Shown here one piece after another: positions 45,956 through 64,000 of a stretch of DNA of 64,000 bases. The notes under the pieces were generated by a model, which ran no database searches, was not told where the DNA came from, and worked only from the letters and a program-made list of their open reading frames with translations. The DNA comes from Sphaerochaetaceae bacterium (GTDB lineage Bacteria > Spirochaetota > Spirochaetia > Sphaerochaetales > Sphaerochaetaceae): contig JAQQAI010000089.1 in the NCBI GenBank assembly GCA_028532915.1, positions 248,001-312,000 on the forward strand. The letters run 5' to 3'. Every line of letters begins with the position of its first letter. Position 1 is the first letter of the stretch. Position numbers and translations under genes: made by a program.

Positions 45956-47218
45956 TCAGTGTTTCGGGGCATGTTTCAGAAGATACTGCTCAGCCTCGAG
46001 AGACCACAGGCCGTTGTTACGTTCTGTGATCTCAGATAGGGCCTTGTAGAAGGGATCTGTTTTTCCCAGTTCAGCGAAGTCTGCGATCGCTGTGAGAGGA
46101 AGATCGTAATGCGTGTACATCAGTTTCTTTCCGCCGGGAATCGAAGGAAGATTTATGACCGTATCGGTTACCGCGTTGAGTCCTCCGATATGAGTCACCA
46201 TACTGGCCGGATTCAGTTTACCTTTCTCCATCATGGAAAGGGATTCAGTCATATCGGCCGTGTTTCCGCCGCTGGTTCCCACTATATGAGTAGAAGCATA
46301 GTGAACATTGTAGAAATTCATCATAGCACTGAAATCAGTTCTGTTGGGACCTGCGAAAAAGTTGAGACATCCGTCTCTGGCAAGGATCTTGTCGGCCTGT
46401 TCCACAAGAGGAGCCACGGGAGCCATAACAAGAACATCATCGTATCCCTTTCCTTCCGAAAGCTCCATCAGAGCAGCGACAGGGTCGCTGGTGTTCTTCG
46501 TATTGAGATAGATGAGTTCGACACCACCTTTCGCCGCCTCTTCGATCGAATAGAGTGTCTGAGCCCTTTCGAGACGAGCATCGTCGATATCGGTTACCAC
46601 AACTCTCTTCGGTCTGCGGTCGCAGTGGATCGCATAGTCTATAGCACCCAGCCCCATCGGCCCCACTCCGGCTATGATGGCAAGATTGCCGCCTTCTCTG
46701 ATTCCCATATCATGGACATAAGACCCGTTTGTCGTATGGTACATAGCATGATAGGTCCCGACGATACACGATACAGGTTCAGCCAGTGATCCGAGGAAGA
46801 AAGCTTCGCCTTCGTAAGGAAGGAGGCAGTTGAGCTCCATCACTTCGTGAGGGATCACGATATAGGTTGAATCTCCTCCGATATAGGGATAGGAATATCC
46901 CGGTGCCGCAAGTGATCCCTTGTAGTTGAGTGCAGGCTGAATAGAGAATTTCGATCCTACAGAGAAGGAATCTTTCCATTTTGCCCCGACCTCTACGATC
47001 TCACCGCAGAACTCGTGCCCCAGTATGATCGGATTGTCTGCCACATCGTTCGGAATACGTTTGTGATCAGCGCCCTGTTCTGCCGCCTTATGATCGCTCA
47101 TACACACACTGTTGGTGATGATCTTTGCGAGTATCTCATCATCTTTGATTGCGGGAAGTTCGAATTCCTCAACTCTCAGATCGTTTTTTCCATAAAGTCT
47201 TACTGCTTTTGTTTTCAT
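45956..47218 (-). CDS. Zinc-type alcohol dehydrogenase, L-sorbose-1-phosphate reductase (SorE)-like
   Basis: 420 aa from the second of two tandem ATGs, 6 nt after AGGGAG. Medium-chain dehydrogenase: catalytic zinc site VCMSDHKAAEQG and GHEFCGEIVEVG, Rossmann segment IAGVGPMGLGAIDYA. Features of SorE as I recall it: PNDVADNPIILGHEFCG, PGYSYPYIGGDST, GCLNFFAGPNRTDFSAMMNF, HIVGTSGGNTADM and the tail LWSLEAEQYLLKHAP. SorE reduces L-sorbose 1-phosphate to D-sorbitol 6-phosphate. The four-cysteine structural zinc lobe is not seen. Confidence 0.8.
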   Translation of the reverse strand: MKTKAVRLYGKNDLRVEEFELPAIKDDEILAKIITNSVCMSDHKAAEQGADHKRIPNDVADNPIILGHEFCGEIVEVGAKWKDSFSVGSKFSIQPALNYKGSLAAPGYSYPYIGGDSTYIVIPHEVMELNCLLPYEGEAFFLGSLAEPVSCIVGTYHAMYHTTNGSYVHDMGIREGGNLAIIAGVGPMGLGAIDYAIHCDRRPKRVVVTDIDDARLERAQTLYSIEEAAKGGVELIYLNTKNTSDPVAALMELSEGKGYDDVLVMAPVAPLVEQADKILARDGCLNFFAGPNRTDFSAMMNFYNVHYASTHIVGTSGGNTADMTESLSMMEKGKLNPASMVTHIGGLNAVTDTVINLPSIPGGKKLMYTHYDLPLTAIADFAELGKTDPFYKALSEITERNNGLWSLEAEQYLLKHAPKH

Positions 47219-47233
47219 CATAATCTCCCTTGT

Positions 47234-48394
47234 CTAGTTGAGCATTACCTGCCCGCCGGTTACCGGCAAGGCCTGACCTGTCTCATACTTCTGTTCTACA
47301 ATATAACATATTGCCCTGACTACATCCGTTGTCTTACATCCTCTTGATAGTGGTACCTTCGATTCATAAAAGGCCCGTACATCCTCGACGCTTTTGGCTC
47401 CGGGGACCTTGTTCGCTCTCAGATACTGGACAAACAGTCCTCTGTCGGGATCGGACCACAGCGGACCGTCCAGGAAATTTCCCGGGCACACCGCATTCAC
47501 CTTGATGTTGTCGCTGACCAGTTCGAGTGCAAAACTCTGTGTCAGCCCGATAGTACCGAATTTCGCTCCGGCGTAGGCTCCGTTCTTGTTCGACCCTTCA
47601 AGACCGCTTTTGCTGCTTATGGTAATGATATCGGTCATATAGCGGCCGCCCGATCCGATATTCTGAAGAGCCATCTGACGGGATGCGAATTTTGTGCAGA
47701 TGAAAAACCCGGTATAATCGACTGAAGTGACGAATTCGAAATCTCTCAGGGAGATCTCTTTGACGCTTCCGGCTTTCAACACCCCTGCATTCGATACGAA
47801 AAGATCGATCGAACCGGTTAAGGCCGCTATCTCGTCCATCATCTGTTCGACAGACTCTTCGCTGCTCACATCCACTTTCAGACCGAGAGCTACAGTAGAT
47901 CCCGTCTTCTCATTGAGTTGAGATGCAAGAGAATCGGCGCCCTCTTTATTCATATCGGCGATGAAGACGAACCCACCCTCATCGATGAGTCCCTGAACGA
48001 TACCGGCACCGAAACCCTGTGCTCCGCCTGTTACGATGGATATCTTTCTTTTCATGATATCACTTCTTCTGCTGCTTCCTATAAAGGAGGGTTCCCGAGA
48101 AAAAGTCCCGGAGACAGCTTCGTCATAACTCATTCCCAGGTTGAACGTTACTGGAACGTTTTGCACACCTATACTTTTCGGGTATCTTCCGTTTGAACCG
48201 GCATATCCGGCAACTATTGAATCGAGGATCTTCACCGTTTCAGCAGCATCATCCCCGATGACAGACTCTGGAAGCATTACCTCAGCCTGACTGCCCTCTA
48301 TTGCATGAACGAATACGGAGGACTCACCATCATAGAAATATCCTCTGATCACAGGTCCCAGGAAAGAGACCAGTTTCTTTATTGTGCTATCCAT
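47234..48394 (-). CDS. Short-chain dehydrogenase, sorbitol-6-phosphate 2-dehydrogenase-like, with an N-terminal extension
   Basis: 386 aa from MDSTIKKLVSFLGPVI (ATG 48394, AAGGAG at proper distance; ATG 48403 is too close to it). Residues about 1-112 are an added domain of no recognised family. The SDR begins at MKRKISIVTGGAQGFGAGIV; SNAG, ISSKSG and YAGAKFGTIGLTQSFALELV give the Ser-Tyr-Lys triad. The end KVPLSRGCKTTDVV and TGQALPVTGGQVML closely parallels SrlD. Predicted reaction: D-sorbitol 6-phosphate to D-fructose 6-phosphate. Fifteen nt before the reductase gene. Confidence 0.78.
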   Translation of the reverse strand: MDSTIKKLVSFLGPVIRGYFYDGESSVFVHAIEGSQAEVMLPESVIGDDAAETVKILDSIVAGYAGSNGRYPKSIGVQNVPVTFNLGMSYDEAVSGTFSREPSFIGSSRRSDIMKRKISIVTGGAQGFGAGIVQGLIDEGGFVFIADMNKEGADSLASQLNEKTGSTVALGLKVDVSSEESVEQMMDEIAALTGSIDLFVSNAGVLKAGSVKEISLRDFEFVTSVDYTGFFICTKFASRQMALQNIGSGGRYMTDIITISSKSGLEGSNKNGAYAGAKFGTIGLTQSFALELVSDNIKVNAVCPGNFLDGPLWSDPDRGLFVQYLRANKVPGAKSVEDVRAFYESKVPLSRGCKTTDVVRAICYIVEQKYETGQALPVTGGQVMLN

Positions 48395-48396
48395 CG

Positions 48397-49749
48397 TTAA
48401 CATAACTCCTTGAATGTTCTTTTTGCGATATCGACTATGCTTTGAGGTTCGTAGGGATCCATTTTCATCCCGATTCCAGCATAGACCGATATCTTATCCT
48501 GCAACTTCCTGCCGTTCAGCGGGTTGTGTTCGCTGAACAGTCCCCAGTCAGGGTTTACATCTACCAGTTTTTCATGTGCAACAAGAGCCCAGGCGGACGA
48601 AACAAGGTGAACTGCTTCCTCTTCAAGCAGCTGCGGACAGTTGAACGACTGCCGTGAACTGTTGATGTCGACACCGCTGATCTCCATAAGATTGTGTTCT
48701 CTGCATAGCTTCTGAAGTCTTGCCATCTGCTCTTTCGTATTTCTCGGGGGCATATAGGTGATGGCAGGAAAACCGATGGAGGCCAGATATGCAACGAGTT
48801 CATCAAGAAAATCATCTTCAAACTTCTCTCTCTTCTTGTCGCCCGTGACGCTGTCGCCGACATCGCCGAGGTATGCATAGGCAGGAATCGCATCGATTGA
48901 AAGTGCAAAATCAACGACCTTTCTCACATCGATAGTCTCTTCTCGTGAAGGCTGGATGAAGAACTTGTCCAGATAGGCTCCCTTCAATACACCCAGTACG
49001 TCATAAAGGAAATGGACATTATCGGTATCGAGCAGACGTGACCGCAGCGTATCGGAAACGGAAATCTCAAGCTTTTCGGTCAGAAAGGAGACAACTTCAT
49101 CCTGAGATTGTGCCATCTTTGATATCTTCTTCGAGAAGGCATAGAGGATATGACGTTCTGTAATAGAGCCGCCTTCATCCGCTTTGGACAGAGGGGCCAC
49201 ATCGGCATCGAAATCGATAGGATCGACACCCAGAGGAATGATGATCTTGTTGAGAGCCTCAACCTGTTTCCTGTTCCGTTTGTTTCTTTCGATACATACA
49301 GGTTTCAGAAAATCCTTCACCTTCTCATATGCGCCCGCTTTGACGCCGTGAACAACCATGTAGACGATCCCCCTGCTGTCGGGGTTGTTGATCTTCTTAT
49401 CTTTGAAGGGAGTATCGAGAAAACTGCATCTGACTTCAAAACCGCACGTACTTGCGATACCGAGACGTTTTGAAGCCTCATGCATCTCATAGGCGGCTCC
49501 GATCGAATCATGATCGACCGAACCTACGATCGCCAGTCCGGCTTTCCAGGCGGCATAGGATGCAGCTGCAGGCTCGTATGGACTGAATGAATATGTGGTA
49601 TGCACGTGGTTGTTAACCTGTTCGAGAACCTCACGGGAAATTTCACCTTTTTTGTATGATTCACGAACAAAATCGCAGGCCGCAAGGCGTCGCTGCAAAG
49701 ATGGATCGTTGATATCCTTCTGAATCGTTTTAATAGAAAAATCACTCAC
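48397..49749 (-). CDS. PHP-domain metal-dependent hydrolase of unknown substrate
   Basis: 450 aa from a GTG at 49749 preceded by AGGAGA; a longer frame to 49815 would cross the intercistronic hairpin and lacks an SD. PHP metal motifs: NNHVHTTYSFSPYEP (HxH), VGSVDHDSIGAAYE, CGFEVRCS and MVVHGVKAG, later ISGVDINSSRQSFN. PHP enzymes are phosphoesterases, but this long single-copy type is unassigned. Its place between the PDH genes and the sugar-phosphate enzymes suggests a phosphosugar substrate, which is inference. Two nt separate it from the SDR. Confidence 0.75.
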   Translation of the reverse strand: MSDFSIKTIQKDINDPSLQRRLAACDFVRESYKKGEISREVLEQVNNHVHTTYSFSPYEPAAASYAAWKAGLAIVGSVDHDSIGAAYEMHEASKRLGIASTCGFEVRCSFLDTPFKDKKINNPDSRGIVYMVVHGVKAGAYEKVKDFLKPVCIERNKRNRKQVEALNKIIIPLGVDPIDFDADVAPLSKADEGGSITERHILYAFSKKISKMAQSQDEVVSFLTEKLEISVSDTLRSRLLDTDNVHFLYDVLGVLKGAYLDKFFIQPSREETIDVRKVVDFALSIDAIPAYAYLGDVGDSVTGDKKREKFEDDFLDELVAYLASIGFPAITYMPPRNTKEQMARLQKLCREHNLMEISGVDINSSRQSFNCPQLLEEEAVHLVSSAWALVAHEKLVDVNPDWGLFSEHNPLNGRKLQDKISVYAGIGMKMDPYEPQSIVDIAKRTFKELC

Positions 49750-49784
49750 TATAGGGTATCTCCTGTCTTTTTCAGTAGATATGA

Positions 49785-49810
49785 AGCGGCAGGCCCGAAA
49801 GCCCACCGCT
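49785..49810 (-). other. Intercistronic hairpin between E1 and PHP genes
   Basis: AGCGG/CCGCT and GGC/GCC arms around a UUUCGG-like loop. On the minus strand no T-run follows, so it is more likely an mRNA processing or stability element than a full terminator. It separates PDH and sugar parts of the unit. Confidence 0.45.
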
Positions 49811-49823
49811 GACATTTTTTTTA

Positions 49824-52280
49824 TTATACACCAGATTCGAGCTGACGGGTAAATTCTCCGTCACTCAGATTTCTCACTATCTTCCTGTTTGCGATCGGAA
49901 GAACCTGCTGATGAATCGCATCGATGATCGAATCAACCTGCGGGAAGTAATATTCTTCCATCTCGGCAGGCGGGGTTATCCAGTTACGTGAACCGATGAC
50001 TACAGGTGGAGCATCAAGGTAATCGAAAGCGAGCCGTGAGAGATTCGCCGCGACAGTCTGAAGATAGCTTCCTCTTTCGCTGCTGTCGGTCACCAGGACG
50101 GTCTTGCCTGTCTTCTTGATCGATTCGATGAGAAGATCGTATTTGAGAGGATTGATCCATCTCAGATCGATGACTTCTGCTTCAAGGCCGTATTCTTCTT
50201 TCAGTCTCTTCTGTGCCTTCATACAGGTGTACAGTGACGGCCCGAGGGCTATCAGAGTGACATCCTTTCCGTCCACTCTCTTGACCGGTTCTCCTTCAGG
50301 AATCTCATAGTAGCCTTCAGGAACACCTTCTTTGACAAACTGTTCGCCGATACCGTAGAGTTTCTGGCTTTCGAAGAACACAACAGGGTCGGTTCCTCTG
50401 AGTGCTCCATTCAACATACCTTTCACATCATATGGGGTTGCAGGATACATCGCCTTCAGTCCGGGAACCGATGCGACCATGCTTGTCCATTCCTGAGAGT
50501 GCTGAGCACCGTATTTATTACCAACGGAGACACGCAGTACCAGAGGCATCTTCAGGACACCGGCTGACATCGACTGCCATTTGGGCATCTGGTTGAACAC
50601 CTCATCTCCTGCACATCCGAGGAAGTCGCAATACATCAGTTCAACTACAGCACGGCCACCGCTGAGTGCGTAGCCGACACCGGATCCGACGATGGCTGAT
50701 TCGCTGATGGGAGAGTTGAAGAACCTGTGGTATGGAAGAAGTTCGGTCAATCCGCGGTAGCAGGCGAAAGCTCCGCCCCAGTCGCGGTGGTCTTCACCGT
50801 AGGCGATCATGGTCGGGTCCTGAACGAACCTGTAGGCCATAGCCTCGAATACCGCATCACGGTACTGGTATTGTCTGCTTGCCGAAAGTTCTTTGCCGTT
50901 TTCGTCGAAAGCGTACCGGCTTCTTCTGCTGATCTGTTTCACCCTCGCGTTATCTTCGAGTTTCTCGAGCAGCTCGACCTCTCTGTCGTCAAGAGCAGGA
51001 GCATTGCCGTTGCTGAACATGACGCTCTCGATAAAATCGCCATCAACCATCGGAGAGAGCTTCTCATCGACAGTGATGCTCAAGGCCGTCTTGAGTTTAC
51101 CGAGGACTTTCTGCTGCATCTTCTCGAGCTCTTCTTCGGTGGTCACTTTGTTATCTACAAGATATTTGCCGTAGGCATGAATCGGATCTTGAGCCTTGAA
51201 CGCCTCGAGCTCCTCTTTTGTGCGGTATGTCATTGCATCTGAAGGAGAGTGACCGCTGAAACGGTATGTCAGAGTATCCATGAGAACTGGACCTTCACCT
51301 TTGAGAAGGATCTCTTTCTTCCGGGCTGTCGCATCTGCGACGGCCAGCGGATTGAAACCGTCAACACGTTCCGAATGCATGTTCTGGGGATTGACTCCGG
51401 CACCGAGGCGGGCAGCCATACCGAAACCTGATGTCTCACCTACAGGCTGTCCGCCCATGGCATAGAGGTTGTCGAATACGTTGATCATATAGGGAGGTGC
51501 ACCCTTGTTGTCTTCCCACAGAGTTTTGTACTGGTCCATCGTGGACATGTTCATCGCTTCCCATACAGGACCGCGGGCCAGAGAGCCGTCACCGATGTTG
51601 GCTATGACGATCCCTTTCTTTCTGTTGACTTTCTTGTAGAGAGCCGAACCGAAAGCGATCGTACCGCTTCCTCCGACGATCGCATTGTTGGGCATCGATC
51701 CGAAGGGAGCGAAGAAGGTATGCATGGAACCGCCCAGACCTTTAGAAAAACCTGTGGATTTCGCATAGATTTCGGCAAGTGTACCGTAGATGATGAAGTT
51801 CTGAGCCAGATCTTTTATTGAATCACCATCAAAGTTCTCTTTTACGACCTTATAGGTCTCACCGTTCATGAATTCTTTCATGATGGTCTCTATCTTCTCA
51901 TCATCCATCTTGTCGATTGCCGAAAGACATTTTGCAAGGATCTCTCCGTGAGACCGGTGGGAACCGAAAATATAGTCTTCAGGATCGAGATTCATCGCCT
52001 GACCGACTGCAGCGCTTTCCTGGCCTGCAGAAAGGTGGGCAGGCCCTTTATGATTATAGGAGATCCCCTGATAGACACCTTCCTTCTTGATGGAGTCCAG
52101 CATCGTCTCGAACTCTCTGATGACGACCATATCATAATAGACTTTGATCAGTCGATCTTTGCCGTATCGTTTGAGTTCTTTTTTGATATCGCTTACATAC
52201 TGGTTGACCGGAATCTCTCCGAGGTCAACGACCTCTTTCTCTCTAATCTGTTTTGGGTCAAATGATATTTTCTTAGCCAT
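49824..52280 (-). CDS. Pyruvate dehydrogenase E1, fused alpha and beta subunits
   Basis: 818 aa from MAKKISFDPKQIREKE (ATG 52280, AGGAG upstream). Residues about 50-430 are E1 alpha with GPAHLSAGQESAAVG, FGSHRSHGEILAKC and the TPP motif IGDGSLARGPVWEAMNMS. Residues about 480-800 are E1 beta with IAYGEDHRDWGGAFACYRGL, NSPISESAIVGSGVGYAL and HSQEWTSMVASVPGLKAMYP. The fused form is known in Bacteroidota, Chlamydiae and spirochaetes. It overlaps nothing but starts 13 nt after the lpdA stop. Decarboxylates pyruvate (a branched-chain or acetoin substrate cannot be excluded). Confidence 0.9.
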   Translation of the reverse strand: MAKKISFDPKQIREKEVVDLGEIPVNQYVSDIKKELKRYGKDRLIKVYYDMVVIREFETMLDSIKKEGVYQGISYNHKGPAHLSAGQESAAVGQAMNLDPEDYIFGSHRSHGEILAKCLSAIDKMDDEKIETIMKEFMNGETYKVVKENFDGDSIKDLAQNFIIYGTLAEIYAKSTGFSKGLGGSMHTFFAPFGSMPNNAIVGGSGTIAFGSALYKKVNRKKGIVIANIGDGSLARGPVWEAMNMSTMDQYKTLWEDNKGAPPYMINVFDNLYAMGGQPVGETSGFGMAARLGAGVNPQNMHSERVDGFNPLAVADATARKKEILLKGEGPVLMDTLTYRFSGHSPSDAMTYRTKEELEAFKAQDPIHAYGKYLVDNKVTTEEELEKMQQKVLGKLKTALSITVDEKLSPMVDGDFIESVMFSNGNAPALDDREVELLEKLEDNARVKQISRRSRYAFDENGKELSASRQYQYRDAVFEAMAYRFVQDPTMIAYGEDHRDWGGAFACYRGLTELLPYHRFFNSPISESAIVGSGVGYALSGGRAVVELMYCDFLGCAGDEVFNQMPKWQSMSAGVLKMPLVLRVSVGNKYGAQHSQEWTSMVASVPGLKAMYPATPYDVKGMLNGALRGTDPVVFFESQKLYGIGEQFVKEGVPEGYYEIPEGEPVKRVDGKDVTLIALGPSLYTCMKAQKRLKEEYGLEAEVIDLRWINPLKYDLLIESIKKTGKTVLVTDSSERGSYLQTVAANLSRLAFDYLDAPPVVIGSRNWITPPAEMEEYYFPQVDSIIDAIHQQVLPIANRKIVRNLSDGEFTRQLESGV

Positions 52281-52293: not shown

Positions 52294-53646
52294 CTATAAA
52301 TTATGTGCAAGCGAAACGATAGTGTCTTTCATGACTTCCGAGACACTAGGGTGCGGATACACGATCTGGGCTACTTCATTAACTCTTAATTCACTTTCAA
52401 TGATGACTGCAGCACTGTGGATCATCTCACTGCTGTAGGGACCTATCAGCTGTATACCGAGGATGATGGAAGTTGCCGCATCGACGACAATCTTGCATAA
52501 TCCTGCAGCACGTTTTCCATTCTCCGCCAGGAAGCGTCCGTTCGAACGCATCTGGGTCGAAACGACTTTAACGTCGATATTCTTATCTTTCGCCTCCTGC
52601 TCGGTCAGACCGCAGCCTGCGACCTCCGGAAGACTGTATACGGCCCACGGAATCGCATGATAGCGCATTCTGTCTTTCTTATCCCCGTAGAGGTTGTTCA
52701 CGGCCACATCGGCCTGTCTGGATGCACTGTGGGCAAGAAGCGATTTTCCATTAACATCCCCGATGGCGTAGATATTGGGAACCGAAGTGGCCATAGTATC
52801 ATCCACGACCACCCTGTTGCGGTCGATCTTGAGCTTCAGCGGCTCCAGATTGGCGACATTCGGTCGTCTTCCCACACTCATCAATACCATATCGGCCGCT
52901 ACGGATTTCTCTTCACCTTTCCTGTCGGTGTAATAGACGTTCTTTTCATCTATTCTTGTCACCTTGGCTTCGAGATTGAACGTCACATCCTTCATCTCAC
53001 GGCGAAGAAGTTTTGCGATCTCTTTATCCGCCATAGGAATGATCTCGTCGAGCATTTCTATGACTGTTACCTTCACGCCCAGTGTCGAGAACAGGGAGGC
53101 GAACTCCACACCGATGACACCTCCACCGATGACGGCCAGAGAAGAGGGAAGCTTCTCAACCGAAAGGATCTCGGTGCTCGTGACAACATGGTCAAGATCA
53201 TGTCCGGGAATCGGAATGACTACCGAAGAGGAACCGGTGGCGATGATGATCGATTCGGCGGCAAATTCTTCCCCGTTCACCAGCACATGCTGCTGAGAGT
53301 TGAAGGAGGCTTCTCCGAAGACCACATCAACCTTTGCACTTTTCATCAGAAACTCGATTCCTTTTTTAAGAGTATCGATCGTATCCTGCTTCCATGCCAT
53401 AGCAGCGGCGAGGTCGAACGAGACATCCTTGACTATTACACCCTTCTTCTCGGAGTCCATCGCATGTTCGTACAATTTGGCACTGTTGAGAAGGCTCTTT
53501 GTGGGGATGCAACCCCAGTTCGTACACACACCGCCCAGAGCATCTTTTTCGATGAGAAGGACCTTCTTTCCCATCTCACCTGCTTTGTGAGCCGCGACGT
53601 ATCCGCCGGGGCCTGATCCGACGACTATCAAATCATATTCTTTCAT
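52294..53646 (-). CDS. lpdA: Dihydrolipoyl dehydrogenase (E3)
   Basis: 450 aa from the ATG at 53646 after AAGGAG. FAD-binding LIVVGSGPGGYVAAHKAGEM, redox-active disulfide GGVCTNWGCIPTKSLL, second Rossmann fold LAVIGGGVIGVEFASLF, AIGDVNG and the C-terminal interface with the active-site His-Glu near YPHPSVSEVM. Reoxidises the lipoyl arm of E2 with NAD. Fifteen nt after E2. Confidence 0.95.
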   Translation of the reverse strand: MKEYDLIVVGSGPGGYVAAHKAGEMGKKVLLIEKDALGGVCTNWGCIPTKSLLNSAKLYEHAMDSEKKGVIVKDVSFDLAAAMAWKQDTIDTLKKGIEFLMKSAKVDVVFGEASFNSQQHVLVNGEEFAAESIIIATGSSSVVIPIPGHDLDHVVTSTEILSVEKLPSSLAVIGGGVIGVEFASLFSTLGVKVTVIEMLDEIIPMADKEIAKLLRREMKDVTFNLEAKVTRIDEKNVYYTDRKGEEKSVAADMVLMSVGRRPNVANLEPLKLKIDRNRVVVDDTMATSVPNIYAIGDVNGKSLLAHSASRQADVAVNNLYGDKKDRMRYHAIPWAVYSLPEVAGCGLTEQEAKDKNIDVKVVSTQMRSNGRFLAENGKRAAGLCKIVVDAATSIILGIQLIGPYSSEMIHSAAVIIESELRVNEVAQIVYPHPSVSEVMKDTIVSLAHNL

Positions 53647-53661
53647 CACCTACTCCTTAGA

Positions 53662-55011
53662 TTATAATGCAAGCATCAGGTCGATCGAGGCGATATTGTT
53701 CACTAGAGCCTTCATGAACCGGGCTCCGGGAGCACCGTCGACCGCCATATGGTTCACCGTCAGTGACAGGGCTATATGAGGAACGAACGAGACATCGTCT
53801 CCCCCTTTTCCTACGGGTCTCAGCGAAATACCGCCGACTCCGAGTATCGCGACTTCCGGTATATTGATCACCGGAGTGAACGAATCGATTCCGAGGGCGC
53901 CGAGATTGGTCACCGTAAAGGTCGAACCGCTGAGTTCATCCATTTGAGCCTTACCGTCGATCGCCTTCTGTGCGAGACGTTTAGCTTCCGAACTCAACTC
54001 GCGCAATGAACGCAGAGAAGCGAAGGGGATGACCGGAACCAGAAGGCCCTTGGGTGTGTCGACTGCACATCCGAGATGCACATGCTCGAACTCGACGATC
54101 TTGTCTCCCAGGTAATGAGCGTTCAACGCGGGGAACTGCTGCAGTGTTTTCGCGACTGCGAACATCACCATATCGTTCAGCGTGACATTCTGCAGTTCAA
54201 GAGCGGGATCACTGTTTTTACATCTGGCTCTCAGAGCCATCAGTGATGTGGCATCTGCATAACTTGTCATGGTGAACTGCGCTGTCGTGGCAAGGGATTC
54301 GCCCATTCTCTGGGCAGTGACCTTTCTGACTCCTTTGACCGGAATCTCCCTGACCTCCCCGGGGAAGGCAAGCGATGAAGTTTCAGCAGCAGTGTCGCCG
54401 GAATGTTTCAACAGATCCTTGAGAAGGATTCTTCCGCCGATCCCGCTTCCCTGAGGCGGAGCAAAACCGTCACCGTTGACGATGGCTTCTTTTGCAGCCG
54501 GTGATATCGAAGGATATTGAGCTGAATAGGCCAGCACATCACGTTCGATGATTCTTCCTTTCGGTCCGCTGGGTTGTACAGATGAGAGAGGCACTCCATG
54601 ATCCTGAGCGGCATGCCTGGCTCTAGGTGAGGCAAAAAGTTCATCCGACTCATTGACAGTCCTGACCGGTTCGGCAGGATTTTTCTGCACGGCGACCTCT
54701 TCCTTTTCTGCCTTTTGAGGTGCACTTTCCTCAATTCCCTCTTTTTTGGGAGTGGAAATCTCCACCTTCTCCCCTTTTTCACCGACGATCATCATAGGAG
54801 ACATGACGGGAACTTCATCCCCGACTTCATATAATAAGGCAAGGACAGTTCCGTCTGCACTCGATTCCACCTCGATGGTAGACTTATCTGTTTCCGCTTC
54901 GCATACGACATCTCCGGCAGAAACGGTGTCTCCAACGGCAACTCTCCATTCGAGAATGATACATGCTTCAACAGAATTCCCTTGTTTCGGCATTACAACT
55001 TCTACAGCCAT
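53662..55011 (-). CDS. Dihydrolipoyl acyltransferase (E2) with two tandem subunit-binding-like domains
   Basis: 449 aa. Lipoyl domain 1-77 with the modified lysine K43 in ETDKSTIEVESS. A Lys/Glu linker follows, then a peripheral subunit-binding domain FASPRARHAAQDHGV...GPKGRIIERDVL (about 127-162). A second similar segment SPAAKEAIVNGDGF...GIGGRILLKDLLKHS (about 172-208) precedes the catalytic domain 215-449 ending NHMAVDGAPGARFMKA with the HxxxDG active site. GGGAG precedes the ATG. It follows the DeoR gene by 12 nt. Confidence 0.9.
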   Translation of the reverse strand: MAVEVVMPKQGNSVEACIILEWRVAVGDTVSAGDVVCEAETDKSTIEVESSADGTVLALLYEVGDEVPVMSPMMIVGEKGEKVEISTPKKEGIEESAPQKAEKEEVAVQKNPAEPVRTVNESDELFASPRARHAAQDHGVPLSSVQPSGPKGRIIERDVLAYSAQYPSISPAAKEAIVNGDGFAPPQGSGIGGRILLKDLLKHSGDTAAETSSLAFPGEVREIPVKGVRKVTAQRMGESLATTAQFTMTSYADATSLMALRARCKNSDPALELQNVTLNDMVMFAVAKTLQQFPALNAHYLGDKIVEFEHVHLGCAVDTPKGLLVPVIPFASLRSLRELSSEAKRLAQKAIDGKAQMDELSGSTFTVTNLGALGIDSFTPVINIPEVAILGVGGISLRPVGKGGDDVSFVPHIALSLTVNHMAVDGAPGARFMKALVNNIASIDLMLAL

Positions 55012-55023: not shown

Positions 55024-55776
55024 TTATACAATTATTAATTTTATTCCTAATCCCTCGATCTCTTTTACTGCCGAATCTACCAGATTCGAATCGGTAATCA
55101 GAACATCGATATCTTCCAATGAGCATATTCTCACAAAACCTATCTGATTGAATTTGGTGGAATCTGCCACCACGACCTTGGTGGTAGCCTGACTACACAT
55201 CCGGCGTACGATCTCGGCATTTTCGGTAAGAGGTGTGGTAAGGCCATGAGTGAGAGAGAATCCGTCGGTTCCGGCAAAGGTTATTCCCACATGATACTGC
55301 TCCAGCTGTGCCAATGTGAGAGGACCGACGAGAGCTTCGGCGGAAGGACGAAACTCTCCACCTACCATCGTAAGTGAAATATTGGGGTTCCCTCTCACAT
55401 AGGCTGAAAGGAGTGTCGAATTCGTAACGATCTGCACATCTCTTTTCCCGTACAGATACTTCGCGATGAAAGCGCTCGTCGTCCCGTTGGTGATCATGAT
55501 CTTGTCGCCGTCGGAAATCATCTGGGCTGCAGCCTGTGCAATTCTCTTTTTCGTCTCGATGTTGCTGGACTGCTTTTCCATGAAAGTGGGATGATAGGCG
55601 ACCATGGCCGAACCGTGCGAACGGTTGATGACTCCCTTGGTCTCAAGCGAACGGAGGTCACTTCGTATGGTGACCGCAGAAACTCCCAGACTGCTGCTGA
55701 GCTGATTAACTGACAGCTCGCCATCCTGAACCAATAGAGCAATGATCTGTTCTTCCCTGTTTGACAATCCTACCAT
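55024..55776 (-). CDS. DeoR-family transcriptional regulator
   Basis: 250 aa from the ATG at 55776 (a GTG two codons earlier is possible). N-terminal HTH: SNREEQIIALLVQDGELSVN, LGVSAVTIRSDLRSLETKGV and the wing NRSHGSAM. The C-terminal sugar-phosphate-isomerase-like effector domain has KIMITNGTTSAFIAKYL, MVGGEFRPSAEALVGPLTL and FAGTDGFSLTHGLTTPLTEN. Such regulators sense phosphorylated sugars. First gene of the unit with PDH and sugar genes; iterons over its promoter suggest self-control. Confidence 0.92.
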   Translation of the reverse strand: MVGLSNREEQIIALLVQDGELSVNQLSSSLGVSAVTIRSDLRSLETKGVINRSHGSAMVAYHPTFMEKQSSNIETKKRIAQAAAQMISDGDKIMITNGTTSAFIAKYLYGKRDVQIVTNSTLLSAYVRGNPNISLTMVGGEFRPSAEALVGPLTLAQLEQYHVGITFAGTDGFSLTHGLTTPLTENAEIVRRMCSQATTKVVVADSTKFNQIGFVRICSLEDIDVLITDSNLVDSAVKEIEGLGIKLIIV

Positions 55777-55797
55777 ATCCACTTCTCTTTACAAATT

Positions 55798-55843
55798 CTT
55801 TCTATATGCTTTCGATTATATTTCATTATACTTTCATTTACAA
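55798..55843 (-). promoter_or_regulatory. DeoR-operon promoter with four 11-bp phased CTTTC repeats
   Basis: Minus-strand promoter TTGTAA (55838-55843), 17-bp spacer, TATAAT (55815-55820). On the plus strand CTTTC, CTTTC, ATTTC, CTTTC start at 55798, 55809, 55820 and 55831, an exact 11-bp period, covering the region from the spacer to past the start of transcription. DeoR-family proteins such as AgaR and GlpR use CTTTC/TTTCG direct repeats, so this is a good candidate operator. Confidence 0.75.
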
Positions 55844-55940
55844 GTCTTTTCTTCATCGTTTTTCATCAGATTCCAATTTTCCCTTCGAATCTTGTCAAAA
55901 CCTCCCAGAGTCTATAGTGTAGAGTGAATGGAGAGCCATT

Positions 55941-56297
55941 ATGCCTATACTTGTACAGATTTTGCTTTTTTCAATCGTCGGTCTGGCAGGAGTCGCGTTA
56001 TCAAACATCCTTCCGATCCCTTTTCCCGCTTCGATCCTTTCGATGGTCATCCTTTTTCTGCTCCTTCTTTTCAGGATCATCAGGAAAGAGGACGTGAAGG
56101 GAGTTTCCACGACTCTGGTGAACAATATGGGACTCTTTTTCATCGTACCTGCCATATCGATTGTGAAATATATCGACACGATAGGTGATAATCTGATCTA
56201 TTTCCTTCTGATATCAATCATTGCGACGATCACTACATTCATAGCAAGCACTCTATCGATAAAACTCGCCATCAGATTTCTCAAGAGGGTAAAATAA
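55941..56297 (+). CDS. lrgA: LrgA/CidA-family membrane protein, probable pyruvate facilitator subunit
   Basis: 118 aa with four hydrophobic helices: IPFPASILSMVILFLLLLF and FFIVPAISIVKYID are the LrgA hallmarks. GGAGAG lies 6 nt before the ATG. LrgA/B homologues were first called holin/antiholin-like; B. subtilis PftAB and S. mutans LrgAB move pyruvate. Divergent from the DeoR-PDH operon. One nt separates it from lrgB. Confidence 0.85.
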   Translation: MPILVQILLFSIVGLAGVALSNILPIPFPASILSMVILFLLLLFRIIRKEDVKGVSTTLVNNMGLFFIVPAISIVKYIDTIGDNLIYFLLISIIATITTFIASTLSIKLAIRFLKRVK

Positions 56298-56298
56298 T

Positions 56299-56979
56299 AT
56301 GGAACAGTTGACAGCGACGCCATTCTTCGGTCTGAGCCTTACCATAACAACCTTCATGGCAGGACGCTTTCTCGCGAGGAGAATACGGCTTGCCATTGCA
56401 AACGAGATGATCATTGCGATCCTTCTGTGTCTTGCCGTCATGTACATTTTCGACATCAGAGTCGAACAGTATATTCAAAGCAGTGCGGCCCTTAATTTCA
56501 TGATCATTCCGGCAACCATAGCTCTTGCCTATCAGGTATATGAGCAGATATCCTACGTGAAAGCCTATCTCCTACCGCTTCTTGTAGGGACGATCGTAGG
56601 GTCCGCCGTTTCGATCGGTTCGGTGCTGCTCCTTCTCAGGATCTTCCCTCTTCCAGATATTCTCGGCCGATCACTGATTCCGAAATCTGTAACCACTGCG
56701 ATAGCGATGGAGGTGAGCACACTTCTCGGTGGCGAACCTTCGATCACGATACTGGCCGTGGTGTTCACGGGTTTCACCGGAATTCTGATCAATCCATTCC
56801 TCATAAAAGTACTCAAGGTGAAAGACCCGGTGGTCACGGGGCTCGGGTTCGGCATCAGTGCTCACGTGATAGGAACCGCGAAAGCTTTCGAATATGGTAA
56901 GGTCGAAGGAGCTATGGCATCAATCGCGATCTTCTTCACCGGGGTCGCCACGGTTGTGTTCTCGCTACTGCTCATCTAA
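56299..56979 (+). CDS. lrgB: LrgB/CidB-family membrane protein, probable pyruvate facilitator subunit
   Basis: 226 aa, about six to seven helices. Family signature LIPKSVTTAIAMEVSTLLGG, followed by VVFTGFTGILINPFLIKVLK and the conserved GFGISAHVIGTAKAFEYG. Acts with LrgA. The 3' end overlaps the AraC gene tail-to-tail by 15 nt. Confidence 0.92.
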   Translation: MEQLTATPFFGLSLTITTFMAGRFLARRIRLAIANEMIIAILLCLAVMYIFDIRVEQYIQSSAALNFMIIPATIALAYQVYEQISYVKAYLLPLLVGTIVGSAVSIGSVLLLLRIFPLPDILGRSLIPKSVTTAIAMEVSTLLGGEPSITILAVVFTGFTGILINPFLIKVLKVKDPVVTGLGFGISAHVIGTAKAFEYGKVEGAMASIAIFFTGVATVVFSLLLI

Positions 56980-57866: not shown

Positions 57867-57883
57867 GATAGGAGATGTACGAG

Positions 57884-59377
57884 ATGGCAGTTATTGCAGG
57901 AATAGATGTCGGCACGCAATCCACGAAGGTTGTGCTTTACGATGAGAAGACAAGAGAGATCATAGCTCAGGCTAGTTCACCCCACCGGATCATCGCACAG
58001 GATGACGGGACCAGAGAACAGAAGGCCTCATGGTGGACCGATGCGATACGGACGTGTTTCGACTCGATTGACGAACGCAGTAAAAGAAGAATCGATGCCA
58101 TCGGTGTAAGCGGACAGCAGCACGGATTCGTTCCCCTCGATAAGGATGGAAACGTCCTGTATAACGTGAAACTGTGGAACGACACTTCGACCGCTTCAGA
58201 ATGTGAATACCTCACCCGATGTGCCGGAGGCCGGCAGAAGCTGCTCGAGAACGAAGGAAATCTGATCCTTCCCGGTTATACAATCGGAAAGATCCTCTGG
58301 CTCAAGAACCACAAAAGAGAATTGTACGACAGGCTTGCTCACATCCTTCTTCCCCACGATTACATCAACTATTACCTTACCGGAAATATCACATGTGAAG
58401 CAGGAGATGCATCGGGAACAGGACTGTTCAATGTTAGAGAGCGCACATGGTCTCACCGTCTTGCCGCCTGTATAGATGACAAAAGGAATATCATCGAATG
58501 CATGCCTCCTCTCATCTCAAATGAGAAGAGCTGCGGAACCATACGTGCTGAAATAGCAGCCGACCTGCATCTGAGAGAAGATGTCATCGTCTCGTCCGGA
58601 GGCGGAGATAATATGATGGGAGCAATCGGAACAGGAGTCGTGAACGAAGGGACCATGTGTGTATCACTTGGAACCAGCGGGACGATCTTTGCCCATTCGT
58701 CCACTCCTCTGATCGATGACAACGGCTATCTCGCCGCATTCTGTTCTTCGACGAACGCATATCTGCCTCTATTGTGCACTATGAACTGCACCGTGGCGAC
58801 CGAATATACACGTGCCCTTTTCGGTAAAGATGTGGTCTCTTTTGATATGGAGGCAAAAAAGGCTCCTATCGGCTGCGACGATCTTGTGATGCTCCCCTAT
58901 TTCAATGGAGAGAGAACACCGAACTACCCCAACGGAAAAGGAACCCTGATCGGTCTGAATCAAAAGAATATGACCGAGGCTCACATCTGCCGGGCCGCGA
59001 TGGAATCTGCGATATTCTCCCTGCGTCTAGGTCTGGACACCTTCAGGGAGAAAGGGTATGCGGTAAAGGAGATCAGACTCATCGGCGGTGGAGCGAAATC
59101 CAAGGTATGGCGTTCAATGTGTGCAGATATCTTCAATGTGAAAATTGTGATTCCCGAGGTTACAGAGGGAGCAGCCTTCGGAGCAGCGCTTCAGGCCCTA
59201 TGGGCATTGTCCACTATCAACGGAGGCGGCAGAACGATCCAGGATATAGCAGATGAGCATGTTATCCTCGATTCCGATCATATCTACTATCCTGATGAGA
59301 AAAGAGTCGAATCATATGAAACGGCATATAAAAGATATCTCAACTATATGAAAGAAGTTGAACATATGTTCAAATAA
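57884..59377 (+). CDS. xylB: Xylulokinase
   Basis: 497 aa from the second ATG (57884), 9 nt after AGGAG; the first ATG (57875) abuts the SD. FGGY kinase: AVIAGIDVGTQSTKVVLYDE, GVSGQQHGFVPLDKDG, SGGGDNMMGAIGTG, SLGTSGTIFAHS, IGLNQKNMTEAHICRAAMES and RLIGGGAKSKVWRSMCADIF. Phosphorylates D-xylulose for the pentose phosphate pathway. Upstream partner of xylA (36 nt). Confidence 0.93.
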   Translation: MAVIAGIDVGTQSTKVVLYDEKTREIIAQASSPHRIIAQDDGTREQKASWWTDAIRTCFDSIDERSKRRIDAIGVSGQQHGFVPLDKDGNVLYNVKLWNDTSTASECEYLTRCAGGRQKLLENEGNLILPGYTIGKILWLKNHKRELYDRLAHILLPHDYINYYLTGNITCEAGDASGTGLFNVRERTWSHRLAACIDDKRNIIECMPPLISNEKSCGTIRAEIAADLHLREDVIVSSGGGDNMMGAIGTGVVNEGTMCVSLGTSGTIFAHSSTPLIDDNGYLAAFCSSTNAYLPLLCTMNCTVATEYTRALFGKDVVSFDMEAKKAPIGCDDLVMLPYFNGERTPNYPNGKGTLIGLNQKNMTEAHICRAAMESAIFSLRLGLDTFREKGYAVKEIRLIGGGAKSKVWRSMCADIFNVKIVIPEVTEGAAFGAALQALWALSTINGGGRTIQDIADEHVILDSDHIYYPDEKRVESYETAYKRYLNYMKEVEHMFK

Positions 59378-59413
59378 CCATTGATCTGATCGATTTCAGA
59401 TGAGGAGGAATTG

Positions 59414-60751
59414 ATGAAAGACGTATTTGTCGGAAACACTGAATATTTCAAATCGGTAGAAAAGGTAGTCTATGAAGGACCGACCTCCGATAATCCGCTG
59501 GCTTTCAAATTCTACGATCCCGATAAGATCGTAGCAGGAAAGACGATGAAAGAGCACCTGAGATTCTCGATTGCATACTGGCATTCATTCTGTGCAGACG
59601 GAAAGGATCCTTTCGGCAATGCGACGATCGACTTTCCATGGACGGATCCGGATCCCATGCAGAGTGCGCGAAATAAAGCGGAGGCCGCATTCGAATTCTT
59701 CACAAAGATTCAGGCCCCCTTCTATGCTTTCCATGATATCGACGCATCACCCGAAGGTGATAGTGCTGATCAGTATGTCAAAAATTACCATGAGATAGCC
59801 GACCTGCTCAAATCTCTTCAGGATGCGACAGGTGTAAAGCTTCTGTGGAACACTTCGAATCTTTTCAGCAATCCCCGATATATGAACGGTGCTGCAAGCA
59901 ATCCCGAGTTCTCGGTGCTCACCCGTGCGGCTCTTCAGGTGAAGACATCTCTCGATGTGAATGTCAAACTCGGCGGTCTGGGATACACCTTCTGGGGAGG
60001 ACGTGAAGGTTATATGAGCTTGTGGAATACCGACACGAAACGTGAGCTGGATCATCTCGGGATGTTCTTTGCGATGGCTCGTGATTACGGCAGAAAAATC
60101 GGTTTCAAAGGAAACTTCTACATCGAACCGAAACCGATGGAGCCGAGCAAACATCAGTACGACTATGATGCAGCCACAGCGATCGCCTTCATCAAAGAAT
60201 ACGGTCTGGAAAAGGATTTCTCATGCAACATCGAAAACAACCATGCCACATTGGCAGGCCATTCATTCGCCCACGATCTTCAGGTATGTGTAAACAACAA
60301 CATGCTCGGATCTGTCGATGCGAATCAGGGAGATCCCCAGAACGGATGGGATACCGATGAATTCCCGACCAATGTGTACGACACGGTCGAAGCGATGATG
60401 ATCATTCTCAAAAACGGCGGACTTCACAACGGCGGTCTCAACTTCGATGCGAAACGACGGAGGAATTCCACCGATCTTGAAGATCTGTTCATCGCCCACA
60501 TCGGAGGTATGGACACCTTTGCACTCGGTCTGGAAATCGCTCAGGCGATGATCGATGACGGTAAGATCGATCATTTCAGAAGACAGAGATACTCATCCTT
60601 CGACAGCGGTGACGGTGCCAGATTCGAAGCGGGAAAGCTCGATCTGAAGACTCTTGCCGCTCTGTCTTCAACATTCAAAGATGAGAAGATCAGCGGGAAA
60701 CAGGAGATGCTGATGAACCTGGTGAATCAGTACATGTTCCGCAGCAGATAA
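59414..60751 (+). CDS. xylA: Xylose isomerase
   Basis: 445 aa, class II length. ATG 59414 after GAGGA; a TTG codon immediately upstream is less likely. Active-site segments APFYAFHDIDASPEGD, YTFWGGREGYMSL, YIEPKPMEPSKHQYDYDA, NIENNHATLAGHSFAHDL, SVDANQGDPQNGWDTDEFP and DAKRRRNSTDLEDLFIAHIG carry the metal ligands and the catalytic His/Lys. Converts D-xylose to D-xylulose. Ends the xylBA unit at a terminator. Confidence 0.97.
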   Translation: MKDVFVGNTEYFKSVEKVVYEGPTSDNPLAFKFYDPDKIVAGKTMKEHLRFSIAYWHSFCADGKDPFGNATIDFPWTDPDPMQSARNKAEAAFEFFTKIQAPFYAFHDIDASPEGDSADQYVKNYHEIADLLKSLQDATGVKLLWNTSNLFSNPRYMNGAASNPEFSVLTRAALQVKTSLDVNVKLGGLGYTFWGGREGYMSLWNTDTKRELDHLGMFFAMARDYGRKIGFKGNFYIEPKPMEPSKHQYDYDAATAIAFIKEYGLEKDFSCNIENNHATLAGHSFAHDLQVCVNNNMLGSVDANQGDPQNGWDTDEFPTNVYDTVEAMMIILKNGGLHNGGLNFDAKRRRNSTDLEDLFIAHIGGMDTFALGLEIAQAMIDDGKIDHFRRQRYSSFDSGDGARFEAGKLDLKTLAALSSTFKDEKISGKQEMLMNLVNQYMFRSR

Positions 60752-60911: not shown

Positions 60912-62663
60912 ATGAAAAAGATCTATGATGAGAAGTATTACGAATCGATCATGAAAGAGGGGAAATGGCCGACCACAGTCGAAGCATTCGAAAATAGCGC
61001 AGCCACTTTTCCTGAACGGACTGCATTCAGTAGATTCATAGGAAACGATAAGGAAACTTTTACCTACACGAAGGCGTCTGCTTATATCAAGACGACAGCA
61101 AAGCATCTGAGATCATGCGGGCTGGACAGGGAAGACAAGATCGTCCTGATAGGGAAGAATTCTCCCGGCTGGGCTATGGCTTATCTGGCTATTCACTCGA
61201 TCGGCGCCATCGTCGTTCCTCTCGATCATATGAGCGAAAAAGAAAAAGTGGTACAACTCGGTTCGTTCAGCGATGCAAAGGCAATTCTCTGCGATTCCCA
61301 ATGGATCGATCAGCTCTTTGGGACGGAGTGGTTCTCCACACTTACTGCTGTCCTCTCTCTGGAAGATGATCACAAAGGATATCACAGTCTCTTCAGTCTT
61401 TCAGAAACAGACGAGAATCTTTTGCTGACGAAGCCGGCTATGGATGATATCGCTGTCATCCTTTATACCAGCGGGACTACAGGAAACGAAAAAGGTGTCC
61501 TCCTTACCCATAAAGCTCTCATGAGCGATGCCTATCAGGCTGCAGACCCCTATTTTCTCACGCTGACGGAACATGATGTTTTCTACGGACTGCTGCCGCT
61601 TCACCATTCGTATGCGATGACAGCAGTCTTCCTCGAATCGATCATACACGGGTCGGAACTCCTTTTCTCTTCCAAGGTTGTCATATCGAGAAACCTTCAG
61701 GAAATGAGAATGGGCAAGGTAACCAATCTGCTCGGGATTCCCCTTCTGTTCAACAAACTCCTTACAGGACTGATGAAGAAGGTCAGAGAGAAGGGATTGC
61801 CCGCCTATATCCTGATCAGGACACTGATGCACATCAATTACTTTTTCAGACGCGCTTTTCATATCAATTTCGGAAAGAGATGGTTCGCACCTCTTCTTGA
61901 CGGTATCGGAATGAAACACAATACACTCACTATCTGCGGCGGAGGACCTCTCTCTCCCAAGGTATTTCGTCAGTATCAGCAGCTGGGAGTCGATTTCATA
62001 CAGGGATACGGACTGACTGAGACCGCCCCTATTCTGACTCTCGTATCCCTTGACCACATCAACGTCAACAGTATCGGGCAGATATTCCCTCTCGTCGACA
62101 TGAGAATAGACGACCCGGACCTTCTCGGTGTAGGGGAAATACAGGTCAAAGGGCCGAATGTCTGCTCGGGATATTTCAGAGATGAGAAGGCGACGGCGGA
62201 ATTGTTCACCGAAGACGGCTATCTGAAAACCGGTGATCTGGGATCGATCGATTCGAGAGGATTCGTCTACATCAAAGGAAGAGCGAAGAATCTCATAGTC
62301 ACCGAGGGTGGAAAGAATGTCTTCCCCGAAGAGATCGAAGAGCTTATCTATGCTTACGGACAGGTCGAACAGGTAGTCATCCGCTCTTATGTGCCAGACA
62401 AAACAATGAAAGGAGAACTTATCGAGGCTCTCATCTATCCCGATAAAGAATATTTCAAAGAACACGGAATTGATGAACAGCAGATAGGAACGGAGATAGA
62501 CACCCTGATTCATTCGGTCAACAAAAAACTTCCACTCTACAAGAAAGTATCAAAGATAACGATCCTGAGTGAAAGTCTTGAGATGACCAGTACGAAGAAG
62601 ATCAAGCGAGGCAAGATTTCCCGTACGATAGAGAGAATGATCGGTCAGTCAACTATTCGATGA
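60912..62663 (+). CDS. AMP-forming acyl-CoA synthetase (long-chain fatty acid type)
   Basis: 583 aa adenylate-forming enzyme: P-loop ILYTSGTTGNEKGVLLTHKA, YGLTETAPILTLVS, and the C-terminal domain hinge TGDLGSIDSRGFVYIKGRAK with NLIVTEGGKNVFPEEIEELI. It would activate a carboxylic acid with ATP and CoA; chain length is not certain. A TATAAT (about 60879) and AAGAAGAG lie upstream of the ATG. It sits between xylose and fucose genes with no obvious link. Tail-to-tail overlap of 11 nt with fucU. Confidence 0.88.
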   Translation: MKKIYDEKYYESIMKEGKWPTTVEAFENSAATFPERTAFSRFIGNDKETFTYTKASAYIKTTAKHLRSCGLDREDKIVLIGKNSPGWAMAYLAIHSIGAIVVPLDHMSEKEKVVQLGSFSDAKAILCDSQWIDQLFGTEWFSTLTAVLSLEDDHKGYHSLFSLSETDENLLLTKPAMDDIAVILYTSGTTGNEKGVLLTHKALMSDAYQAADPYFLTLTEHDVFYGLLPLHHSYAMTAVFLESIIHGSELLFSSKVVISRNLQEMRMGKVTNLLGIPLLFNKLLTGLMKKVREKGLPAYILIRTLMHINYFFRRAFHINFGKRWFAPLLDGIGMKHNTLTICGGGPLSPKVFRQYQQLGVDFIQGYGLTETAPILTLVSLDHINVNSIGQIFPLVDMRIDDPDLLGVGEIQVKGPNVCSGYFRDEKATAELFTEDGYLKTGDLGSIDSRGFVYIKGRAKNLIVTEGGKNVFPEEIEELIYAYGQVEQVVIRSYVPDKTMKGELIEALIYPDKEYFKEHGIDEQQIGTEIDTLIHSVNKKLPLYKKVSKITILSESLEMTSTKKIKRGKISRTIERMIGQSTIR

Positions 62664-63078
62664 CGCCTTTTTTCAGAATGATGTTCGCATAGAGGGAACT
62701 CTCACTTGTAGCCACTATGGCATAGGCCTTCTTTGCCCTTTCATAGAATGCAAAGCGTTCGATGAAACCGAAGCCTTTGAAGTGTACGTCTCCTTCCTTT
62801 GCGATCTTCTCATAGGTGTCCCAGATCGGAGTCTCACACGGGTCTCCGGGAACTTTCTCCATCAAAAACGCATTTGCCTCGAATCTGTCAAGGGGAAGAA
62901 GTTTGAGCATTCCTTCAAGGATCTCTGGTACTCCCAGACCGTCAAGCCTTACGAGCCTCTTGGAATAGGCGGCAGCGGGAAAGTTTCCGTCCCCGATGAC
63001 GATCTCGTCACCGTGACCCATTTCCATCATGATTTTCAACAGTTCGGGACTCAAGAGAGGGGGAATGTTTTTGAGCAT
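62653..63078 (-). CDS. fucU: L-fucose mutarotase
   Basis: 141 aa from MLKNIPPLLSPELLKI (ATG 63078, AAGGAGA upstream); the frame is open 44 codons more through the divergent promoter. RbsD/FucU family: LLKIMMEMGHGDEIVIGDGN with FPAA, MEKVPGDPCETPIWD and the C-terminal FERFAFYERAKKAYAIVATSE-type segment ending SLYANIILKKGVI. Interconverts fucose anomers before isomerisation. Divergent from fucI. Confidence 0.93.
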   Translation of the reverse strand: MLKNIPPLLSPELLKIMMEMGHGDEIVIGDGNFPAAAYSKRLVRLDGLGVPEILEGMLKLLPLDRFEANAFLMEKVPGDPCETPIWDTYEKIAKEGDVHFKGFGFIERFAFYERAKKAYAIVATSESSLYANIILKKGVIE

Positions 63079-63133
63079 TGGAATCTCCTTTTTTATAGAT
63101 AATGATTGCAAGATACAATTTTGCATGCGATAA

Positions 63134-63147
63134 TGTAAACGATTACA
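63134..63147. promoter_or_regulatory. LacI-family-type operator between fucU and fucI
   Basis: TGTAAACGATTACA, a near-perfect palindrome with the central CG typical of LacI/GalR-family sites (one symmetric position pair broken). It lies 38 nt before fucI and 56 nt before fucU, about where the fucI -35 region should be. Confidence 0.6.
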
Positions 63148-63184
63148 CGCCCTTTCGAGTTTACTATAGCATAGGAGGAGCCAT

Positions 63185-64000
63185 ATGGCAAATAATAAAA
63201 AAATCAACATTAACAGTGAAAAACGGTATGCAGGAGATCTTCCGAAGATCGGTATCAGACCGACTATCGACGGAAGAAGACGAGGAGTCAGAGAATCGCT
63301 TGAAGATCAGACGATGAACATGGCAAAGGCCGCTGCAGAGCTTATCAGTTCATCTTTGCGTCATACTAACGGAGAAAGAGTCGAATGTGTCATTGCAGAT
63401 ACCACTATCGGCGGTGTTCTCGAATCAGCACAGTGCAAAGCGAAATTCAAAAAAGAGAATGTAGCCGTTACACTTACTGTCACACCGTGCTGGTGCTACG
63501 GGACCGAGACATTCGATGACGATCCTCTTACAGTGAAAGGCGTATGGGGATTCAACGGAACAGAACGTCCCGGCGCTGTCTACCTTGCCGCTGTCCTGGC
63601 CGCCCATTCACAGAAAGGACTTCCCGCATTCGGTATCTACGGCAGAGATGTACAGGATAACGACGACACTTCAATCCCAGAAGATGTGAAGACAAAGATT
63701 CTCCGCTTCGCCCGTGCCGGTCTTGCCGTTGCGACAATGAGAGATAAATCATATCTGTCTATCGGCGGTATGTCGATGGGCATCGCAGGTTCAATCGTCG
63801 ACCAGGACTTCATCCAGTCATATCTCGGCATGCGGACCGAAGTCGTTGATATGAGTGAGTTCGAACGGCGTGTCGAAGAAGAGATCTACGATCCCAAGGA
63901 ACTTGAACTTGCGAAAAAATGGGTCCGAGAAAACTGTCACGAGGCCGAAGACACAGTCAATCCTCCCGAATATCTTAGAAGCGCTGAACAGAGAGACAAG
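63185..64000 (+). CDS. fucI: L-fucose isomerase, N-terminal part (runs past window end)
   Basis: 272 codons are visible from ATG 63185 (GGAGGAG 8 nt upstream) to the last base, out of about 590. Family segments: [94 protein letters not shown] and [20 protein letters not shown]. Converts L-fucose to L-fuculose. Divergent from fucU with a shared LacI-type operator. Confidence 0.95.

Follow-up and report, generated by a model that had tools for sequence, protein, structure and literature searches.

In Chloroflexus aurantiacus, the DeoR-family regulator RhaR binds in vitro a 38-bp region that contains four TCGAAA sites, and its binding is abolished by L-rhamnulose (PMC3870299). DeoR-type RhaR motifs were described in four groups as imperfect direct repeats with a periodicity of 10–11 bp, and some RhaR regulons include L-lactate dehydrogenases, which extend the route to pyruvate; Spirochaetes are absent from the text of that paper (PMC3870299). 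In Caldicellulosiruptor, every regulator of the LacI and DeoR families is reported to have sites that overlap a promoter or a 5' UTR, which is what one expects of repressors (PMC8579813). In the papers searched, we found nothing relevant on DeoR-family regulators of pyruvate dehydrogenase (PDH) or on spirochaete rhamnose regulons that include PDH. The regulator PdhR, which controls pyruvate dehydrogenase, belongs to the GntR family.

In this work we analyzed a stretch of 64,000 nucleotides from a Sphaerochaetaceae bacterium (contig JAQQAI010000089.1; hereafter the window), which contains a deoR gene on the minus strand (55024–55776). Its product is a DeoR-family repressor with HTH_DeoR and DeoRC domains (PF08220, 55.3 bits, and PF00455, 172.4 bits, both above the cut-off). 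The gene may start at ATG 55776 or GTG 55782, and the starts of its orthologues align with the ATG. The DeoRC domain normally binds sugar phosphates. According to the original prediction, the known DeoR-family proteins AgaR and GlpR use CTTTC/TTTCG repeats. The comparison with AgaR is valid at the family level, AgaR being the best NCBIfam match of the regulator, but it goes no further, as the score of 206.8 bits lies below the equivalog cut-off of 260; our literature search gave no confirmation that AgaR or GlpR use CTTTC.

The promoter region of deoR is organized as had been predicted: CTTTC, CTTTC, ATTTC and CTTTC start at positions 55798, 55809, 55820 and 55831 of the plus strand with an exact period of 11 bp, and a TTGTAA-17-TATAAT promoter (minus strand, 55843–55815, 10 of 12 matches) is directed into deoR. 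On the deoR strand the array reads GAAAG-N6-GAAAT-N6-GAAAG-N6-GAAAG and is followed by a degenerate TAAAG. The core repeat (position 0, TCGAAAG, 55809–55813) directly follows the -10 box. Of the other copies, all likewise on the minus strand, -22 (GAAAG, 55831–55835) lies inside the -35/-10 spacer and -11 (GAAAT, 55820–55824) overlaps the -10 box; +11 is GAAAG (55798–55802), and +22 (55787–55791) is the degenerate fifth repeat, CTTTA on the plus strand. The four copies span 38 bp (55798–55835), and the array covers the -35/-10 spacer, the -10 box and the early transcribed region of deoR. The TTG of the -35 box (TTGTAA, 55838–55843) is invariant in the columns of the family alignment, and the -10 box (TATAAT, 55815–55820) corresponds to TANNAT in the aligned orthologues. 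A second TATAAT (minus strand, 55830–55825) overlaps the region of this promoter.

Seven further genes follow deoR on the same strand, separated by short gaps or overlapping, in the order deoR-E2-E3-E1-PHP-SDR-SorE-like-RhaB-like kinase. Components of a 2-oxoacid dehydrogenase complex are encoded together: E2, a dihydrolipoyl acyltransferase (53662–55011; lipoyl, E3-binding and catalytic domains), E3, a dihydrolipoyl dehydrogenase (52294–53649; TIGR01350 above the cut-off), and E1, a fused alpha-beta 2-oxoacid dehydrogenase (49824–52280), which matches PDH profiles, all below their cut-offs. They are followed by a PHP-domain-like protein (48397–49815), which has a weak match to a nucleoside bisphosphate phosphatase, no Pfam match and no PDB relative by sequence, and is kept in the operon across the class. 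The last three genes encode an SDR similar to sorbitol-6-phosphate dehydrogenase, with about 115 extra N-terminal residues (47234–48403), a Zn-dehydrogenase of the SorE/YggP type (45956–47221; 50–54% identity over 99%) and a rhamnulokinase-like FGGY kinase (44514–45944; 452.5 bits at a cut-off of 528).

The order deoR-E2-E3-E1-PHP-SDR-ADH-KIN is kept in the family, with few exceptions, where the contigs are long enough, and deoR-E2-E3-E1-PHP-SDR-ADH recurs with variations in many families of the class. The genome of the window also encodes pyruvate:ferredoxin oxidoreductase (PFOR), so that the PDH-type complex is not the sole predicted route to acetyl-CoA. It should be noted that two loci from other families, L148 (13815–15332) and L157 (12363–13871), contain an extra FGGY-like kinase gene between the SDR and SorE-like genes; the kinase of L148 is weakly similar to XylB, and the extra enzyme may replace the rhamnulokinase-like kinase in these families. 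At locus L150 (10729–12696) we found a bifunctional protein in which an aldolase is fused to the SDR of the operon, resembling RhaEW-type enzymes. This fusion suggests that the N-terminal extension of the SDR could be what remains of such an aldolase domain, or could have replaced it.

The operon is linked to L-rhamnose genes in the related genus g16, where genes for L-rhamnose isomerase, an aldolase, a sugar ABC transporter and L-rhamnose mutarotase lie just upstream of deoR on the same strand; the isomerase (610 bits, PRK01076) and the mutarotase both score above their cut-offs. In the genome of the window, rhaA, the aldolase, ABC genes and rhaM are located on another contig (C11) and adjoin a gene judged to be AraC-like from its sequence rather than by a profile scan. 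No operator-like site was found for this rhaA region in the first 40 kb of the 55.6-kb contig. Among 139 genomes of the family, a rhaA match was present in 36 of the 38 genomes with E1 (one of the 36 being a fragment) versus 31 of the 101 without it; this genome-level association is confounded by phylogeny, and counted by genus it amounts to 9/9 versus 6/13 (p = 0.017). In two fragmented genomes that possess the operon (G088 and G022), rhaA was not found.

At three g16 loci (L056, L061 and L070), some 5.27 kb upstream of deoR and before the sugar ABC genes, CTTTC forms weak arrays of two copies spaced by 11 bp. These arrays occur in three genomes only and are not common to g16; for some members of this genus, they may mark an additional target of the regulator. 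Another gene related to 6-deoxyhexoses is located near the operon in the window itself (62653–63210, minus strand) and encodes a protein similar to the L-fucose mutarotase FucU, whose counterpart at locus L051 scores above the NCBIfam cut-off.

Judging by gene content, the operon is a sugar-breakdown operon carrying a PDH-type complex, and the sugar is probably L-rhamnose. The original prediction stressed how unusual it would be for a regulator of a sugar-phosphate-sensing family to control a pyruvate dehydrogenase. This surprise largely dissolves, as the PDH-type genes are genes two to four of a sugar operon. A sugar-type effector is to be expected because the operon ends in sugar genes and shows linkage to L-rhamnose genes in genera related to that of the window, and we lean slightly towards a rhamnose-type effector for the DeoR repressor. 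The assignment of the pathway is weaker than that of the operator, since enzymes of the SorE and sorbitol-6-phosphate types do not, to our knowledge, belong to the standard set for rhamnose, and since the kinase scores below the rhamnulokinase cut-off.

These same enzymes could belong to a pathway for L-sorbose, a hexitol or another ketose. The Zn-dehydrogenase shares 50–51% identity with proteins annotated as SorE, and the SDR resembles sorbitol-6-phosphate dehydrogenase most closely; together with the kinase, the SorE-like and SrlD-like enzymes would then turn a ketose-1-phosphate into fructose 6-phosphate via a hexitol phosphate, and a ketose or hexitol phosphate of this route would be the effector. 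The operator model would be the same and only the ligand would differ. We consider such a pathway rather unlikely, given that the kinase is closest to rhamnulokinase, that the genes linked in g16 are rhaA, an aldolase and rhaM, and that the fusion of the SDR to an aldolase at L150 has a RhaEW-type resemblance.

The neighborhood on the other side of deoR bears on a second alternative, in which the regulator senses a metabolite of the pyruvate node and is dedicated to pyruvate metabolism, with the sugar genes riding along and the divergent lrgAB genes included. In the window, an lrgA-lrgB pair (55941–56979, plus strand) is divergent from deoR. Divergent lrgA and/or lrgB genes were also found in the genus of the window and in g6, g9, g19 and g20, with only lrgB detected in genome G021. 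In other organisms, homologues of LrgAB are known to transport pyruvate, a role that would fit the neighboring PDH. Moreover, at almost every locus the genes immediately behind deoR are of the PDH type, and the presence of PFOR in the same genome means that the PDH-type complex could be conditional. On the other hand, in g16, g12, g17 and g5 no lrgAB genes were found next to the operon, a distance of about 60 bp separates the array from the apparent lrgA promoter, the last genes of the operon encode sugar-type dehydrogenases and a rhamnulokinase-like kinase, and the usual ligands of DeoRC are, as stated above, sugar phosphates. Sensing of a pyruvate-node metabolite thus appears improbable. Control of lrgAB by the array is likewise unsupported, as several genera keep the array without having lrgAB beside the operon. 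Near lrgAB and an AraC-type gene, the window also contains xylulokinase-like and xylose-isomerase-like genes (57875–60751, plus strand); this neighborhood, whose genes were named by sequence inspection and not by profile search, is kept in several genera.

Whatever the ligand, the array itself is real and far beyond chance. When the 159-bp intergenic region was shuffled 20,000 times with its dinucleotides preserved, four copies of NTTTC spaced at 11 bp appeared in one shuffle, and a comparable four-copy array of any pentamer with a period of 10 or 11 appeared in 14. The original prediction had proposed a scan of the genome for the repeats, and the four-copy pattern was found once in 2.64 Mb, at the deoR promoter (the control with the reversed pattern gave no match). 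A PWM built from the orthologous sites, the site of the window included, scored 61 bits at the array, and no other position in the window exceeded 11.6 bits, a value obtained with the array read in a shifted register. The composite -10/operator pattern had no second match in the genome with fewer than three mismatches, and a wide regulon was rejected, the deoR site being the only one in the genome to match the longer pattern at this level. The promoters of the five other DeoR-domain genes of this genome lack the array. Pairs of GAAAG-N6-GAAAG are common (38 sites in the genome) and uninformative.

To follow the array in orthologous promoters, we compared 36 loci from the 36 genomes of the family with a close deoR homologue (at least 49% identity; the genome of the window included), 23 of them from g16 and 13 from other genera; the single distant DeoR of the contig scan (L002, 35%) was left out. 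The core copy was present with at most one mismatch in all 36 loci, and the -10 box was directly followed by GAAAA or GAAAG in 36/36, mostly as TAATAnAATCGAAAG. At these 36 loci the array extends over the spacer, the -10 box and the start of the transcribed region of deoR. Copy +11 was exact in 23/23 g16 loci and in 5 of the 13 others (9/13 with at most one mismatch); copy +22 was found with at most one mismatch in 33 of the 36 loci and was exact in 21/23 from g16. Copy -22 differed between the two sets: GAAAG within one mismatch was present in 13/13 loci outside g16 and in 0/23 within it. At position -11, GAAAT was found only in the genus of the window, while other genera mostly have a -10-type sequence such as GTAAT. 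Thus, the four regular copies of the original prediction are the form that a five-position array takes in the genus of the window.

The phase of the copies was analyzed in 13 loci from 11 genera or sub-lineages, picked to limit redundancy. The mean number of matches to GAAAG (of five) was 4.54 at -22, 4.23 at +11 and 3.85 at +22, and mostly 1–2.5 elsewhere. The sum of matches at +11 and +22 (105/130, null mean 50.7) and that at -22 (59/65, null mean 26.9) were each reached by none of 5,000 shuffles. Outside the family, 8 of 18 deoR promoters from other families of the class score at least 13/15 for three copies, located 39–45 bp before the start. Exact triple GAAAG occurs in 21 g16 genomes, once per genome and always at the deoR promoter; exact-triple matches in g2, g7, g11 and g18 are single and come from genomes that yielded no close deoR homologue. 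The 11-bp repeats, whose absence from orthologous promoters had been named as grounds for abandoning the prediction, are therefore kept in them. In addition, the sense strand of deoR carries an inverted CTTTC that precedes the core repeat by 43 bp and lies immediately before the -35 box; it is exact in 17/23 g16 loci, L056, L058 and L063 among them, and may be an additional half-site of opposite orientation.

The idea that the repeats simply reflect the AT richness of the promoter, i.e., helically phased A-tracts that bend the DNA and bind no protein, is hardly credible: the region is 68% AT and its GAAA runs are in phase for curvature at 11 bp, but the flanking G residues of GAAAG are kept (2.0 and 1.6 bits in columns 0 and 4), the six bases between the copies vary across orthologues, dinucleotide-preserving shuffles do not yield the array, and the other DeoR promoters of the genome are devoid of it.

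Based on the retention of the repeats in orthologues, the array is very probably an operator through which a DeoR repressor acts locally and regulates its own gene. In this respect the original prediction stands, as a prediction; its further suggestion of an unusual regulator dedicated to PDH is not supported, the array preceding an eight-gene sugar operon. We infer the following mode of action. Each GAAAG would be a repressor contact; as 11 bp correspond to roughly one helical turn, all contacts would face the same side of the DNA. A repressor multimer would occupy three to five consecutive turns, from the spacer through the -10 box to the first transcribed bases, and would block RNA polymerase when bound. 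Repression would extend over all eight genes, deoR and E2-E3-E1-PHP-SDR-SorE-like-RhaB-like, which are presumably co-transcribed. An intermediate of the sugar pathway would release the repressor, the likeliest candidates being L-rhamnulose, L-rhamnulose 1-phosphate and a related 6-deoxyketose. The operon would then supply the kinase and the downstream redox steps of 6-deoxyhexose use, and the 2-oxoacid dehydrogenase complex would take the pyruvate formed on to acetyl-CoA.

It can be hypothesized, tentatively, that a lipoyl-dependent 2-oxoacid dehydrogenase complex with a fused E1 is a fixed part, class-wide, of a DeoR-repressed 6-deoxyhexose operon. It might serve as a sugar-induced, catabolite-specific PDH separate from PFOR, or act on another 2-oxoacid in an undescribed pathway with PHP, SDR and SorE-like enzymes. 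A regulator kept in many genera now has a firm operator that can be tested and a regulon of a single operon, and the adjacent pyruvate dehydrogenase, formerly read as a housekeeping enzyme, becomes a probable part of a sugar operon. The analysis also raises the questions of why a lineage with PFOR retains a sugar-inducible PDH-type complex and what the role of the conserved PHP, SDR and SorE-like enzymes is.

Comparison with known systems revealed different degrees of likeness. PdhR-type control resembles the present case in that the regulator gene heads an operon with pyruvate-dehydrogenase-type genes, but the protein family and the type of operator (direct repeats here) are different, and here the operon continues into sugar genes. 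AgaR of Escherichia coli provides the best NCBIfam profile match of the regulator, though below the equivalog cut-off, and the operon contains no aga genes. The RhaR motifs predicted for Thermotogales, Rhizobiales and others (PMC3870299) are also imperfect direct repeats with a 10–11 bp period and belong to local regulators of one to a few operons, but each group was reported to have its own motif sequence.

The closest documented operator, by this comparison, is that of the DeoR-family RhaR of Chloroflexus, a nearly identical precedent. In both cases a DeoR-family regulator is encoded with its target operon, which includes a rhamnulokinase gene (here rhamnulokinase-like), and four direct repeats fall within 38 bp, with the consensus TCGAAA there and the core TCGAAAG here. 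The two differ in that the operon described here contains E1-E2-E3, the PHP protein and the SorE/SrlD-like enzymes, while in the genome of the window the isomerase, aldolase and transporter genes are located elsewhere, beside an AraC-type regulator. Binding and release were measured in Chloroflexus and are predicted here. By analogy with the RhaR regulons that reach pyruvate, the PDH-type complex would extend the rhamnose route one step past it. Thus, the switch itself is of a known kind, and the remaining novelty is the PDH-type complex as a fixed part of a rhamnose-type operon.
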